Shown here in pieces: positions 14,938 through 19,161 of a stretch of DNA of 41,590 nucleotides. Each line of letters opens with the position of its first letter. Positions within the stretch are counted from its first letter, which is position 1. The DNA comes from Calothrix membranacea FACHB-236. GTDB lineage: Bacteria; Cyanobacteriota; Cyanobacteriia; Cyanobacteriales; Nostocaceae. A program made the translations under genes and the position numbers. The DNA lies in assembly GCF_014696315.1 (NCBI RefSeq), contig NZ_JACJPX010000073.1, positions 1-41,590 of the forward strand. The letters are read 5' to 3'. The notes below the pieces were generated by a model. The model searched no databases, had not been told where the DNA came from, and saw only the letters and a list, made by a program, of their open reading frames with translations.

Positions 14938-15534
14938 ATGCCTTATGATCCACAAAAACATCATCGCCGTTCTATTCGCTTGAAAGGGTACAATTACACC
15001 CAACCTAGTGCATATTTCATCACCATTTGCACCAAAGCGCGGCAATGTTTATTTGGTAATGTGGTTAATGGCGAAATGCAATTAAATTATTTAGGATATA
15101 TTGCCTTTAACTACTGGCAAACAATACCCGAACATTTTCCCCACATTGAATTAGATGCCTTTGTAGTCATGCCTAACCATCTACACGGCATCTTAATCAT
15201 CACCGAAAACCCTGTAGGGGCAAGGCAATGCCTTGCCCTCAACCAACATCCCAACCACAAAACAGAAAAATCCTGTAAACCTGTACGTGGTTCTATATCT
15301 ACAGTAATTGGTAGTTATAAAAGCGTTGTTAGCAAAAGCATAAATATAATTTGGCAAACCCACGGGCAATCAATTTGGCAACGCAATTTTTACGAACACA
15401 TTGGTAGAGCAGAAAAATCGGTAGATAACATTCGAGAATACATTGCCAATAATCCCCAGCGTTGGGATGATGACCCAGAAAACCCGCGACATAATTCTGA
15501 TATTCAAGATTACCTTTTCGATATACCTTTTTAA
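14938..15534 (+). CDS. REP-associated tyrosine transposase (RAYT, IS200/Y1 superfamily)
   Basis: A 198-residue Y1 HUH nuclease. Seen: N-terminal RRSIRLKGYNYTQPSAYFIT; the metal-binding HUH motif in VVMPNHLHGILI (His81, His83); the catalytic Tyr127 in IGSYKSVVSKSIN; and the conserved C-terminal WQRNFYEHIGRAEKSVDNIR followed by EYIANNPQRW. RAYT enzymes cut single-stranded REP hairpins and recognise the tetranucleotide GTAG at the hairpin foot. Every REP in this window has that foot, and three full copies lie within about 650 bp of this gene. A REP copy also sits inside the gene in frame (residues 93-101, VGARQCLAL), between the HUH motif and the Tyr helix. Length is normal and no stop is introduced, so the enzyme may still be active. 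Confidence 0.92.
   Translation: MPYDPQKHHRRSIRLKGYNYTQPSAYFITICTKARQCLFGNVVNGEMQLNYLGYIAFNYWQTIPEHFPHIELDAFVVMPNHLHGILIITENPVGARQCLALNQHPNHKTEKSCKPVRGSISTVIGSYKSVVSKSINIIWQTHGQSIWQRNFYEHIGRAEKSVDNIREYIANNPQRWDDDPENPRHNSDIQDYLFDIPF
15214..15240 (+). repeat. REP palindrome inside the RAYT coding sequence
   Basis: A full 27-bp REP (GTAGGGG start, stem CAAGGC/GCCTTG, CCCTC end) read in frame as nine codons for VGARQCLAL. Its core is identical to the copy at 14686. 27 is a multiple of three, and the frame is kept. Confidence 0.9.
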
Positions 15535-15642: not shown

Positions 15643-15978
15643 TTATGGCTTTTTCTGCGCCAAATTATACTTAACTTCGATTTCAAAATTACTTTCCGCC
15701 GAACCCTCAGTTAAAAACGGAATCCCTGTTTTCCCACCCAACTTGATCCCAAATTTAACAGTCACCTCTTCTGCATCAGGTATATTCTTAAAAGCCCCGA
15801 CAGCTAACTTGGCATAATTACGAATCTTGCTTTGAAACTCTTGAATTTTGACTGTAGGTAAAATATCACGGTATCCTGGTTGTTCATCTTCTGGAACCTC
15901 AGCAGCTTCCTTAGATTCCACATAGATTTCGTACTCTTGATCATCATCTTTGATAATCAGCCTTTGCACTTCTGACAT
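15643..15978 (-). CDS. Trypsin-co-occurring domain 1 (TCO1) protein
   Basis: A 111-residue single-domain protein whose C-terminal half matches the TCO1 (Trypco1) pattern: AKLAVGAFKNIPDAEEVTVK, then FGIKLGGKTGIPFL and a closing strand pair SNFEIEVKYNLA. The N-terminal half is acidic (LIIKDDDQEYEIYVES). TCO1 proteins recur beside trypsin-like proteases, caspases and STAND NTPases in bacterial conflict systems. They are thought to be signal-sensing or effector-linking modules, but their biochemistry is not established. Here the gene is divergent from the caspase-STAND-kinase gene, with 69 bp between start codons (15978 and 16048), so a shared control region is likely. Start ATG 15976-15978. Confidence 0.8.
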   Translation of the reverse strand: MSEVQRLIIKDDDQEYEIYVESKEAAEVPEDEQPGYRDILPTVKIQEFQSKIRNYAKLAVGAFKNIPDAEEVTVKFGIKLGGKTGIPFLTEGSAESNFEIEVKYNLAQKKP

Positions 15979-16047
15979 TTGGTAGCCTCAGTTAGTTTTT
16001 TGATTGTTATTCTAGTACTATTACGTAAAAATGAACGCCACAGAGAT

Positions 16048-18852
16048 ATGGCTCGATATGCCCTGGTAATTGGCATTGCCAAGTATGACAACTTCACTAA
16101 CCTACCAAAAGCCGTCAACGATGCCGAACAAATCGCACAGCTATTAAAAGAACACGGTCGCTTTGATGTGCAGCCGTTACCTGGTAAATTAATCGAGAGT
16201 GAAAATCGCTGGCAAGTCACTGCTGAGAAAAAATTAATTGGCAAAGAACTCGGTCAAACGCTGAGGCTGTTTTTACTGGAGAAAGCCAAGGGTAGCGAAG
16301 CGCTGATTTATTTTGCAGGACATGGATTTGAAGCACCCAGCCTCACAGGTGAACCGAAAGGGTATTTAGCTACTTCAGATTGTCATAAAGACGGGCAAAA
16401 TGCGATCGCCTTTGATGACTTCAACAGCTTAATTGCGAAATCTCAACTCAGCAGCCTGGTGGTATTGTTAGATTGCTGTTACGCTGGCTCATTACTAGAA
16501 AGAAGCTTCATCAGATCCAGTTTTCCAGTCTTCAACAGCAAACAAGATTACTGCTTAATTACAGCCTCCCGTGCATTTGAAAGAGCTAGGGAAGATGCGG
16601 AAGGTGGGATTTTCACCAAAGCAGTCATCAAAGGATTGTCTCAAGATAAAGCTGATGATACTACAGGGGAAGTCAATGCCAACGACTTGATGAGCTTCGT
16701 ATCGCGGGAACTCAAGGGAAGCGGACAAGAAGCAATTTACATGGGTGGTGGGAGGTCGATTTCCTTAGTTTTTTATTCACCGCAGAATCCGGTAGCAGCT
16801 GGGGTAGTAAGTGAAGAATGTCCTTATCGAGGATTACAAGCTTTTGACAAAGAACACTCCAAGTTCTTTTTTGGTCGCCAGAAAGTAGTTAACTTAATTC
16901 AACAAAAACTCGAGCAAGCTAACTTTATTCCCATCATTGGTGCATCAGGGAGTGGTAAATCTTCCGTAGTGCTGGCAGGTTTAATTCCAGTGTTAGAAAA
17001 TAATGGCTGGCGAGTATTAGAGATGACACCAGATGTCGAGCCGTTAGCTGAGTTGAGAGGAGTATTTAAACCATTTTTCCCTAACACCAGAGAACTTTAC
17101 GATTTGATTCGCAAGCACCCAGAAGGTTTACGTCAGCTAGTTTTACGCCTTCCTGATTCTGAGCGTTTCTTATTGCTGGTAGATCAATTTGAAGAAGTTT
17201 TTACCCTTTGTCCCAAAGAAGAGGAAAGAAACAGATTTATTCAGCTATTAACACAAGGTCACGAAGGGCGGTTGGTAATTATCACGACGATGCGAGCAGA
17301 TTTTCTCGAACCTTGTTTGAATTATGAATCGCTGACGCAATTAATTCAAGAACAGGCAATTTATATGCCGCCATTGTTAGGAGGAGAATTAGAAGAAGCG
17401 ATCGCATCCCCAGCAAACTTACAAGGCTATCAGTTAGAGAGAGGTTTACTCGGAACTATTCAGCAAGATGTTATAGGTCAAGAAAAAGGCTGCTTACCTC
17501 TGTTACAGTTTGCGCTGACTGAACTTTGGGAACAGCGCGATCAACAAGCATATCAGTTGACAGTTGTTAAGTATAAAGAACTGGGTGGAGTAACTGGGGC
17601 GCTAAATCGTCATGCAGAAAATCTGTATCAAGGTTTCACTCCACAGCAGCAAGATTGGGTGAAGCGGATTTTTTTAAAGTTGGTGCGTACTGGGTCACAA
17701 GCTAAAGATACTCGACAATGGCAAGCTAAAACAAAATTGTTGAGCATTGCTGGTGACAATCCAGATGAGCAGCAAGTAATAAATGATGTTTTAGAAAAGC
17801 TGATTCAAGGGCGCTTGTTAGTACTTGACTGCGAACCAACAGGAGAAATTTGGGTTGATTTAGCTCACGAAGCCTTGATGGAAGCTTGGGAAAGGTTTGC
17901 TAAGTGGCGTAAAACAGGACGGGAACTCAGAAGATTAATTGATAGGGTAGAAGATGCCTTTCGCGAGTGGCAAGAGCAACCAGATGATGGAAATTTAATG
18001 ATGGGTAGATTGCTGGCTCAAGTGCAACATAAATGGCAAGAACTAGAACCCGAACTGGACACCACAGTTAAAGACTTTTATCAGCACAGTGTTGTATTTG
18101 AACAAAAACAACGCCAGCAATATGAAGCTGCTAATAATGCAAAAAGTATATTTTTGGCTAGTGTATCTCATGAACTTCGTGCCCCTCTCAACGGTATGAT
18201 CGGATTTTTACAGCTGATTTTAGCGGGTATGGTAGAAGATCCTGATGAACAAAAGCAGTTTCTCTTGGAAACACACCATTTATCGATACATTTACTCGAG
18301 ATTATCAACGACATTTTGGACATTGCTAAAATCGAACCAGGGAAAATGACTCTCGCTCCAGAGAGATTTGATATTGAAACGCTGATCAATAATATTGTTC
18401 TCTGGATTAAGCCAGCAATAGAAAAAAACAACAATATTTTAGAAGTAGATTGTCATCAGTATCTTGGCACAATGTATGCAGATGAAAATAGAATCAAACA
18501 AGTGCTTTTAAATCTGTTAAGTAATGCAGCAAAGTTTACGACAAACGGAAAGGTAACGCTGATTGTTAAAAGTGAAGAACAGTCAGTACAAGATACGTTG
18601 AAACATACTGCCGTTGACATGATAATTTTCACAGTTATAGATACAGGCATTGGTATATCTGATAATCTACAAGAAAATTTATTTCAACCCTTTACAACAG
18701 AAGATACATCCAAAAAATATGGTGGGATTGGATTAGGGTTGGCCATTAGCCATCGACTTTGCCAAATGATGGGTGGTGATATTTTTGTCAAAAGTAAGCT
18801 GGGAGAAGGTTCTACTTTTACAGTTCGTCTACCGCGCAATATAAATACATAA
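16048..18852 (+). CDS. Caspase-like protease / STAND NTPase / histidine kinase fusion
   Basis: A 934-residue multidomain protein starting MARYALVIGIAKYD, the usual beginning of bacterial caspase domains. A longer frame to a TTG at 15979 would add 23 residues and overlap the divergent control region; I reject it. Domain 1 (1-245) is a caspase-like peptidase (C14) with His92 in YFAGHGFEA and Cys144 in LLDCCYAGS. Domain 2 (about 257-640) is a STAND-type NTPase of the group with CPYRGLQAF and FFFGRQ before the P-loop GASGSGKSS (298-306) and the Walker B FLLLVDQFEE. Domain 3 (about 695-934) is a complete histidine kinase: H-box SHELRAPLN with His708, N-box NLLSNAAKF, G1 DTGIGIS, G2 GGIGLGLAI. No receiver domain, membrane helix or WD/TPR repeat array follows. 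Caspase-STAND proteins usually end in repeat sensors; a kinase end is unusual. Likely role: stress- or invader-triggered proteolytic signalling (inference). Confidence 0.9.
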   Translation: MARYALVIGIAKYDNFTNLPKAVNDAEQIAQLLKEHGRFDVQPLPGKLIESENRWQVTAEKKLIGKELGQTLRLFLLEKAKGSEALIYFAGHGFEAPSLTGEPKGYLATSDCHKDGQNAIAFDDFNSLIAKSQLSSLVVLLDCCYAGSLLERSFIRSSFPVFNSKQDYCLITASRAFERAREDAEGGIFTKAVIKGLSQDKADDTTGEVNANDLMSFVSRELKGSGQEAIYMGGGRSISLVFYSPQNPVAAGVVSEECPYRGLQAFDKEHSKFFFGRQKVVNLIQQKLEQANFIPIIGASGSGKSSVVLAGLIPVLENNGWRVLEMTPDVEPLAELRGVFKPFFPNTRELYDLIRKHPEGLRQLVLRLPDSERFLLLVDQFEEVFTLCPKEEERNRFIQLLTQGHEGRLVIITTMRADFLEPCLNYESLTQLIQEQAIYMPPLLGGELEEAIASPANLQGYQLERGLLGTIQQDVIGQEKGCLPLLQFALTELWEQRDQQAYQLTVVKYKELGGVTGALNRHAENLYQGFTPQQQDWVKRIFLKLVRTGSQAKDTRQWQAKTKLLSIAGDNPDEQQVINDVLEKLIQGRLLVLDCEPTGEIWVDLAHEALMEAWERFAKWRKTGRELRRLIDRVEDAFREWQEQPDDGNLMMGRLLAQVQHKWQELEPELDTTVKDFYQHSVVFEQKQRQQYEAANNAKSIFLASVSHELRAPLNGMIGFLQLILAGMVEDPDEQKQFLLETHHLSIHLLEIINDILDIAKIEPGKMTLAPERFDIETLINNIVLWIKPAIEKNNNILEVDCHQYLGTMYADENRIKQVLLNLLSNAAKFTTNGKVTLIVKSEEQSVQDTLKHTAVDMIIFTVIDTGIGISDNLQENLFQPFTTEDTSKKYGGIGLGLAISHRLCQMMGGDIFVKSKLGEGSTFTVRLPRNINT

Positions 18853-18912: not shown

Positions 18913-19161
18913 ATGATGACACAAATCACATTTAAGGTTGAAGCATTTTGGGACTCAGATGCACAAGTCTGGTTTGCAACTAGTGATGATGTGCCTGGAT
19001 TAGTAACAGAAGCTTCTACGATTGAGGTTCTGACGCAAAAGCTGCGAGAAATAATTCCCGAACTGATCGTTCTCAACAAAATCGTTCCTCAAGACTATGT
19101 AGGTTCTATCACCTTTGAATTAACCAGTCATCGTCAAGAGTTGATAGAGGTAGCTTCATAG
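18913..19161 (+). CDS. HicB-like antitoxin (DUF1902 type)
   Basis: An 82-residue protein with the partial RNase-H-like HicB fold seen as FKVEAFWDSDAQVWFATSDD followed by VPGLVTEASTIEVLTQKL and IVLNKIVP. The pattern of a beta hairpin with W-x-A-x-S-D-D-V-P-G-L is typical of HicB-family antitoxins. Two ATGs occur in tandem (18913, 18916). The stop codon directly abuts the ATG of the HicA gene, so translation is probably coupled. The antitoxin-first order is the reverse of E. coli hicAB but common for this subtype. It lies about 60 bp downstream of the caspase fusion gene on the same strand. Confidence 0.85.
   Translation: MMTQITFKVEAFWDSDAQVWFATSDDVPGLVTEASTIEVLTQKLREIIPELIVLNKIVPQDYVGSITFELTSHRQELIEVAS

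Follow-up and report, generated by a model that had tools for sequence, protein, structure and literature searches.

A Caspase-nSTAND1-Histidine Kinase Fusion of Calothrix membranacea with a Divergent Trypco1 Partner and an Exchangeable C-Terminal Tail

The Fusion Gene and Its Features

The DNA analyzed here is a stretch of 41,590 nucleotides from Calothrix membranacea FACHB-236 (NZ_JACJPX010000073.1, positions 1 to 41,590), called the window below. It encodes a 934-residue protein (P0001) in which a caspase, an nSTAND1 NTPase and a histidine kinase are fused, and a Trypco1 gene is transcribed divergently from it. Comparison of related sequences indicates a new and larger feature, namely a constant caspase-nSTAND1 core with a swappable C-terminal tail, which in several cases was copied from signalling genes of the same genome. 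The features of the pair are as follows.

15643-15978, minus strand: Trypco1 gene, 111 aa, the divergent partner (PF19493, E 6.6e-17, 62.4 bits against a cut-off of 24.6)
15979-16047: 69-bp upstream region shared by the two genes, lying between their start codons; its spacing and parts of its sequence are conserved (22 loci aligned)
16048-18852, plus strand: caspase-nSTAND1-histidine kinase fusion, 934 aa, ATG at 16048, with all Pfam domains above cut-off
16054-16719, plus strand: caspase domain Peptidase_C14, residues 3-224, with His92 and Cys144 (Pfam, E 9.9e-18)
16822-17982, plus strand: nSTAND1 NTPase, residues 259-645, with Walker A at 298-306 and DQFEE (Pfam, E 5.9e-112)
16988: recombination boundary at residue 314, just past Walker A, where the homology of three relatives (G133, G122, G141) stops (blastn)
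18061-18228, plus strand: predicted continuous helix, residues 672-727, from the STAND tail through His708 (AlphaFold2 model, predicted local distance difference test score (pLDDT) about 70-86 here)
18139-18357, plus strand: phosphotransfer hairpin (DHp), about residues 698-770, assigned to kinase family HK2 by trees and identities; blastn leaves a gap at 18156-18303 against the nearest orthologue
18169-18171, plus strand: phospho-accepting His708 (codon CAT), from motif reading
18181-18183, plus strand: Ala712 at H+4 (HELRAP), where the 8 other fusions and six HK1/HK2/HK3 sequences compared have Thr
18481-18837, plus strand: HATPase_c catalytic domain, residues 812-930, assigned to kinase family HK1 by trees and identities (Pfam, E 6e-28)

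An earlier sequence-only reading had described one open reading frame (ORF) joining caspase, STAND and histidine kinase. This was borne out by the plus-strand ORF at 16048-18852 with its four Pfam domains above cut-off, among them HisKA at residues 698-765 (E 3.7e-16), and His92, Cys144, the P-loop at 298-306, DQFEE and the H, N, G1 and G2 boxes all lie where that reading had placed them. With its caspase His/Cys dyad and the nSTAND1 Walker A and B motifs, the protein has the domain hallmarks of an nSTAND1 caspase conflict protein. The phospho-accepting His and the N, G1, F and G2 boxes are all present, as in HisKA histidine kinases. The earlier account of the kinase was right on the boxes, but it mentioned neither the Ala at H+4 of HELRAP nor a hairpin of foreign origin.

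The family survey covered 192 genomes, the window's own included (E<=1e-100), and gave 52 places in 43 of them. Whole-length matches in one frame were found in 9 genomes. Because the fusion lies in one open frame in these 9 of 192, the window's own included, it is not a frameshift or assembly artefact, which the earlier reading had named as what would overturn it; one of the nine genomes is assembled in 7 contigs. All 52 places plus one further locus (L026) make up the comparison set of 53 loci, the window among them; G-numbers denote genomes and L-numbers loci sampled for comparison. A phylum survey of 386 genomes (two candidates scored per genome, E<=1e-60) matched 71, many through the kinase or nSTAND part alone, and the full-length kinase fusion was found there solely in the window's genome and G116. 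One relative, L025, is plasmid-borne in Nostoc carneum NIES-2107. The window's genome, an 8.8-Mb assembly, has 21 caspase-domain places and three caspase proteins with a strong nSTAND1 match.

Conservation of the Trypco1 Partner

The divergent gene belongs to the Trypco1 family, since its PF19493 match is above cut-off. A divergent Trypco1 homologue lies directly upstream at 47 of the 53 loci (window included), comprising all nine kinase fusions, 31 of the 34 members of the WD40 cluster described below, and 7 of the 10 others; it is absent beside the trypsin-tailed L178 and L179. The window's genome holds only two Trypco1 genes in 8.8 Mb, yet one adjoins 47 of 53 fusion relatives, and a chance neighbourhood is therefore ruled out. 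The earlier proposal of Trypco1 (TCO1) as a conserved partner across a 69-bp gap thus holds. In a wider search of the phylum, an opposite-strand Trypco1 was found beside 14 of 19 caspase-nSTAND1 loci, several of them in other families and 4 of the 14 already among the 53. Trypco1 is not a general partner of all caspase-nSTAND1 proteins, as 5 of these 19 loci lack it.

Among 25 close loci, Trypco1 identity tracks caspase identity (r 0.86; partial correlation 0.85 given nSTAND; none of 2000 permutations as high), with r 0.28 for Trypco1 against nSTAND. Caspase and nSTAND adjoin each other, yet the correlation of their identities is 0.20 for one half of nSTAND and 0.07 for the other. This pattern fits a caspase-Trypco1 unit among close relatives, to which linkage may contribute. 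A Trypco1 profile search in PDB gave no match up to E 1, and the structure model of the protein is poor (pLDDT 48.6).

The second Trypco1 gene of the genome (L227:6108-6476) is on contig C119, near genes for a SWIM zinc-finger and a PCP_red protein; in the three genes scanned there, neither trypsin nor caspase was recognized. The two other strong caspase-nSTAND1 proteins of the genome are encoded on contig C81, where no Trypco1 was found. That contig carries L228 and L229, two large caspase-nSTAND1-WD40 genes in opposite orientation; some 11 kb separate them, and for each a further caspase-domain gene lies in between.

Constant Core and Exchanged Tails

The sequences after residue 690 were classified for the 53 proteins. 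Nine have a kinase, and 34 form one similarity cluster of WD40 type; two of its members were scanned with Pfam, which confirmed WD40 in both. Two near-identical tails are trypsin-like; a PP2C phosphatase, a nucleotide cyclase and a phycobilisome-like domain occur once each; and five are unrecognized, short or without extension, one of them a fragment. While the tails vary, the caspase dyad is kept (His in 53/53, Cys in 52/53).

A tree of the core was built by a quick method from 52 rows, without L168, and several of its long branches are flagged. On it, tail type switches at least 14 times and kinase presence at least 7 times; for the larger kinase class alone, at least 5 changes are required by the starred branches. 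Inheritance of a single ancestral kinase fusion by descent is insufficient, because the kinase tails are scattered on this tree and belong to two kinase classes.

The exchange is also visible at one locus. The flanks of G003, G133 and G122 are about 84-97% identical to those of the window, which makes it the same locus within the genus; for G141 the value is 73-92%, and its contig ends in the gene. Homology stops at the boundary at 16988 in G133, which has another kinase, and in G122 and G141, which belong to the WD40 cluster. Beyond the gene, blastn homology to the window resumes in G133 and G122.

The Kinase Tail as a Mosaic of Two Kinase Families

The window and its nearest orthologue, G003, are 95.5% identical in the caspase, 93.8% in nSTAND and 86.2% in the kinase catalytic domain, and 46.3% in the hairpin. 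The window's catalytic domain is closest to HK1 (65%), a HAMP-HisKA kinase that 55 of 60 genomes carry, and its hairpin to HK2, a GAF-HisKA kinase (74% to the own-genome copy). Both families are present as separate genes in the window's genome. The hairpin of G003 is closest to a third kinase, L200 of the window's genome, with 80-95% identity in the middle of the hairpin. A search with the hairpin DNA matched 118 of 184 genomes, the window's own included; the best matches in others were 80-81% over about 199 bp, a few over about 65 bp, and the 11 other loci inspected from this search are kinases with that hairpin.

Trees of 78 kinases agree with these identities. In the catalytic-domain tree, the window and G003 are sisters (support 100) among HK1 (78), the HK1 nesting labels being taken after midpoint rooting. 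In the hairpin tree, the window falls inside HK2 (98), and G003 groups with L200 (73) and L196 (91). A second, quick hairpin tree of 42 rows again places the window with HK2 (support 90, not starred). In that tree, forcing the window and G003 hairpins together costs 43.4 log units (p 0.033); forcing the window hairpin with HK1 and the other fusions of that class costs 49.3 log units (p 0.030). Thus, the window kinase is a chimera with the catalytic domain of one kinase family and the hairpin of another. By eye, the exchanged stretch is bounded by the conserved motifs FLAN.SHELRTPLN and NDILD.SKIEAGKM, as expected for recombination between paralogues. In another pair of fusions, L135 and L136, synonymous change is 0.47-0.49 in caspase and nSTAND and 0.14-0.19 in the kinase part; therefore, the kinase was exchanged later than the core.

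At the three positions that re-aim EnvZ (H+7, H+11 and H+12, the count presumably starting from His243), the window, HK2 and HK3 have N, G and F, and HK1 has N, G and L. This difference is small, and the remaining hairpin must therefore matter if the aim has changed. Response regulators dock mainly on this hairpin (PMC2991266). An account of natural hairpin exchange was not met in the literature searches.

Tails Copied from Enzymes of the Same Genome

In L026 (Nostoc sp. KVJ20), the phosphatase tail shares 89% identity with a 468-aa protein encoded in the same genome, over 454 residues and thus almost its full length. HltA, a GAF-PP2C phosphatase reported as ubiquitous in cyanobacteria (PMC9430166), matches it in architecture and length. 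The orthologue of this phosphatase in the window's genome is 86% identical. L155 has a cyclase tail that shares 88% identity, over 304 residues, with a cyclase encoded on its own elsewhere in the same genome, the match passing the stop of the host gene by a few residues; a relative in the window's genome is 75% identical. This caspase-nSTAND1-cyclase (L155:9921-11090) matches the PADLOC models of Pycsar cyclases in its cyclase part (E 4.7e-21). These two modules are thus copies of host genes that are still present. For the kinase, HK1 and HK2 are in the genome as well, and with 65% identity in the catalytic domain the capture is old. The caspase-nSTAND1 protein L145:7302-8147 has a phycobilisome-like C-terminal domain (PF00502, E 2.4e-7) that does not match this pattern, and its recent capture is unsupported.

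Several tails have altered catalytic residues. In the L026 phosphatase, GGD, GD and TD are changed to IGN, GN and TN, so that three of the four Asp residues which are taken from the known motifs to bind metal are Asn; with the 52 changes placed at random, p is 0.005. Judging from these substitutions, this tail has likely lost its catalysis. In the L155 cyclase, what is presumed to be the base-recognition Asp is Asn. The L178 trypsin-like tail has Asn where three stand-alone relatives have what is assumed to be the triad Asp, with His and Ser kept; it has a partial 40% match in G088 and none in the window's genome. In the kinases L132 and L135 the phospho-accepting His is Tyr (TAT for CAT), and L135 also has His for one N-box Asn; the other seven of the nine fusions keep His. 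The loss of catalytic residues in homologues, which the sequence-only reading had held would count against it, therefore applies in part to the kinase and not to the caspase. HisKA kinases require Thr at H+4 to act as phosphatases, so the window kinase, with Ala there, may lack that activity.

The fused copies evolve under constraint, though less than the originals. Omega for fused against host genes is 0.12 (phosphatase) and 0.23 (cyclase), averaged over both branches, and 0.04 and 0.10 for host against host. By three-point arithmetic, the fused branches alone have about 0.18 and about 0.4, respectively.

The Linker between the STAND and Kinase Parts

In eight of the nine fusions, 53 residues separate the last nSTAND motif, LLxQVxxxW, from the phospho-accepting position; the ninth has 60, one heptad more. 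In the WD40 group a landmark lies at 68, 70, 71 or 86 (18 rows measured among the 24 of 34 that were tried). For the LOV kinase YF1, linkers are reported to show a heptad dependence (PMC6798134). The fixed spacing speaks for mechanical coupling, not for its direction, and shared descent of the junction weakens the spacing as independent evidence. In full-length searches, the HK1 match starts at about residue 684-688 of the window fusion. The HAMP domain of HK1 occupies 268-319, and residue 686 of the fusion pairs with HK1 326, just past HAMP.

The AlphaFold2 model of the whole protein was built from 45 sequences (mean pLDDT 67, predicted template modelling score 0.34) and is poor in the caspase part. 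A fold search with it was uninformative for the caspase-STAND part, because the 50 matches listed were histidine kinases or complexes thereof.

Neighbouring Genes

PADLOC gave a generic "caspase" match alone for the fusion (E 2.1e-13). VMAP, vWA and MoxR genes were not recognized by eye in the ORF list of the window; profile scans covered some neighbours. Other genes near the pair are as follows.

14938-15534, plus strand: IS200-like (Y1) transposase-related gene adjoining the pair, just below the Pfam cut-off; in L025 and L030 an ORF with the same start lies in the same place
18913-19161, plus strand: 82-aa DUF1902 gene directly 3' of the fusion, with a matching stretch downstream in L138
24973-28101, plus strand: 1042-aa kinase with four GAF domains, 6 kb downstream, with no receiver domain among its Pfam matches

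Comparison with Known Systems

Cyanobacterial orthocaspases, with caspase-NACHT/STAND-WD40 architecture (PMC2853523, PMC3501461, PMC8283722), resemble the window protein in the N-terminal caspase and P-loop NTPase, and their usual tail is WD40. Unlike in the window, a kinase tail is rare among them, HATPase_c and HisKA each being listed in 4 of 473 (PMC8283722, Table 1); the available parts of these papers do not mention a Trypco1 partner. The EACC1-caspase system (Kaur et al. 2020, PMC7159879) is likewise a two-gene arrangement, in which the caspase stays constant and as many as 50 C-terminal domains alternate behind it; some such systems reportedly contain nSTAND1 (PMC8195603). Its partner is the membrane protein EACC1; the window's partner is an opposite-strand Trypco1, and nSTAND1 belongs to the constant core. 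The 5' gene with one conserved transmembrane helix that marks EACC1 is not found here, its place being taken by the divergent Trypco1.

Trypco1 was named for its trypsin neighbours and is shared with the Trypco1-trypsin VMAP ternary systems (PMC7159879). There, trypsin occurs with Trypco1, and caspase is paired with an alpha/beta-hydrolase; in the window, caspase occurs with Trypco1. Among the vWA-associated effectors, that paper found no histidine kinase. Trypco1 and caspase-like domains are mentioned near diversity-generating retroelement (DGR) loci (PMC10907252), and the available parts of PMC7517822, PMC9415839 and PMC7889975 hold nothing bearing on the fusion.

No account of a Trypco1-caspase-nSTAND1 pair with exchanged tails was met in the literature searches, none of which was aimed at integrated decoys in bacteria. 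The label "undescribed" in the sequence-only reading stands to that extent; it does not extend to the kinase domains, already counted in orthocaspases, nor to Trypco1 and variable caspase tails, which are known (PMC7159879).

Possible Mechanism and Alternatives

The pair is proposed, with chances that seem evenly balanced, to be a two-gene STAND (NLR-like) switch with a sensor-side and possibly decoy C-terminal module. The constant part would comprise Trypco1, which may regulate the caspase, the caspase as effector and the nSTAND1 NTPase as an oligomerising switch. The variable part would be a sensor-side module swapped by recombination, in the window a histidine kinase drawn from two families and in the relatives mostly WD40-type repeats with a few copies of other signalling enzymes. 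The tail would be read and would not be the main output. It may bind a response regulator, a phage or stress protein attacking the original enzyme, or a nucleotide; the change would pass through the phase-locked helix, the STAND part would oligomerise and the caspase would be unleashed, with cell death or phage defence as the possible outcome. STAND proteins of the APAF-1 type have their sensor at the C-terminus (PMC7159879). This position, the conserved caspase with its variable tail, and the own-genome copies with altered active sites favour a sensor-side module.

The own-genome copies suggest baits by analogy with plants. Plant NLR integrated decoys are STAND receptors with a built-in host protein copy, whose function is often altered and whose position varies. 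The window system differs in being bacterial and in having a caspase as effector, and any recognition of an attacker by it is hypothetical. In a more specific and rather doubtful version, the family may be a bacterial counterpart of these decoys. The receptor would repeatedly capture copies of regulators of its own genome (a conserved histidine kinase, a nucleotide cyclase and a GAF-PP2C phosphatase with the architecture of HltA, perhaps also a trypsin-like protease), would tend to lose their catalysis and would present them as baits to phage or stress factors attacking the originals, hairpin swapping between paralogues varying the kinase bait.

Several observations weigh against a sensor-side or decoy tail. 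The fixed spacing and continuous helix would fit outward signalling to the kinase equally. With His708 and all of its N, G1, F and G2 boxes kept, the window kinase may well be active, and six of the eight other fusions are intact by eye. In the phosphatase tail, 9 of 31 Asp residues are changed, 7 of them to Asn, and bias-adjusted arithmetic gives a p of about 0.04; the copy has 36 G-to-A against 14 A-to-G changes, so the Asp-to-Asn losses may be drift. The cyclase tail keeps both Asp residues presumed to bind metal. Recent copying is not seen for the trypsin and phycobilisome-like tails, whose nearest sequences found are 60% (in G122) and 26% identical, respectively. The linker at residues 646-698 evolves fast, the ratio of changes between window and G003 being 0.76. 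Over all 47 Trypco1 loci the contrast between caspase (0.85) and the nSTAND halves (0.80, 0.71) is weak. No defence genes were recognized by eye beside the pair, where the neighbours were not scanned with PADLOC.

The main rival is output to a response regulator, followed by a reader resembling DivL. Under the former, STAND oligomerisation would join the kinase parts, autophosphorylation would follow, and a response regulator would receive the phosphate; cleavage by the caspase may free the kinase, as has been proposed for caspase proteins whose C-terminal effectors vary. This is on the whole unlikely, and it stays the main rival because the window kinase is largely intact. The start of the HK1 match right after the donor HAMP would mean that the STAND part stands in for the input domain, the heptad-spaced linker set against the other spacings of the WD40 group suits such coupling, and exchange of the hairpin would direct the kinase to a different regulator. 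In EACC1-caspase proteins, Kaur et al. interpreted the C-terminal domains, which vary, as effectors (PMC7159879). The output reading is hard to reconcile with Tyr for His in two of the nine fusions, one of which also lacks an N-box Asn, or with the changed catalytic residues of the other enzyme tails. Pfam finds no receiver domain in the fusion protein, and none was recognized by eye adjoining it; orphan kinases, however, are common. The phosphorelay output suggested by the sequence-only reading thus may apply to the window, whose kinase, like six more, keeps its His, but as a general rule it is unsupported.

DivL of Caulobacter is a pseudokinase with Tyr for His in a histidine-kinase fold, as in the two fusions mentioned; the window kinase keeps its His. 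A kinase part of this kind would dock a phosphorylated response regulator and report the status of its pathway to the STAND part, with no pathogen involved. This is improbable as an account of the family, as it leaves the phosphatase, cyclase and trypsin tails unexplained; DivL (4q20) is among the fold matches listed, and the regulator-docking hairpin (PMC2991266) is what was replaced, from two donors, in two sister genes. Neutral domain shuffling at a recombination-prone locus, with the tails as decaying passengers, is very improbable. The G-to-A excess of the phosphatase copy, the weaker constraint on the fused phosphatase and cyclase branches, and the fast linker together with a change ratio of 0.39 in the catalytic part, as against 0.13 in the caspase and 0.16 in nSTAND, are what it would predict. 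Open frames in nine kinase fusions, ratios below 1, the fixed linker length and the intact boxes of the window kinase argue against it.

Two sister genes have had their docking hairpin replaced by those of two different donors, a natural counterpart of laboratory re-wiring that is directly testable. If the tail is an output, the fusion would be a rare direct link from STAND proteins to two-component signalling, with a ready linker rule of 53 or 60 residues. Should the tail serve as a bait, the genes it was captured from would reveal the host pathways attacked in multicellular cyanobacteria, and integrated decoys would exist outside plants.

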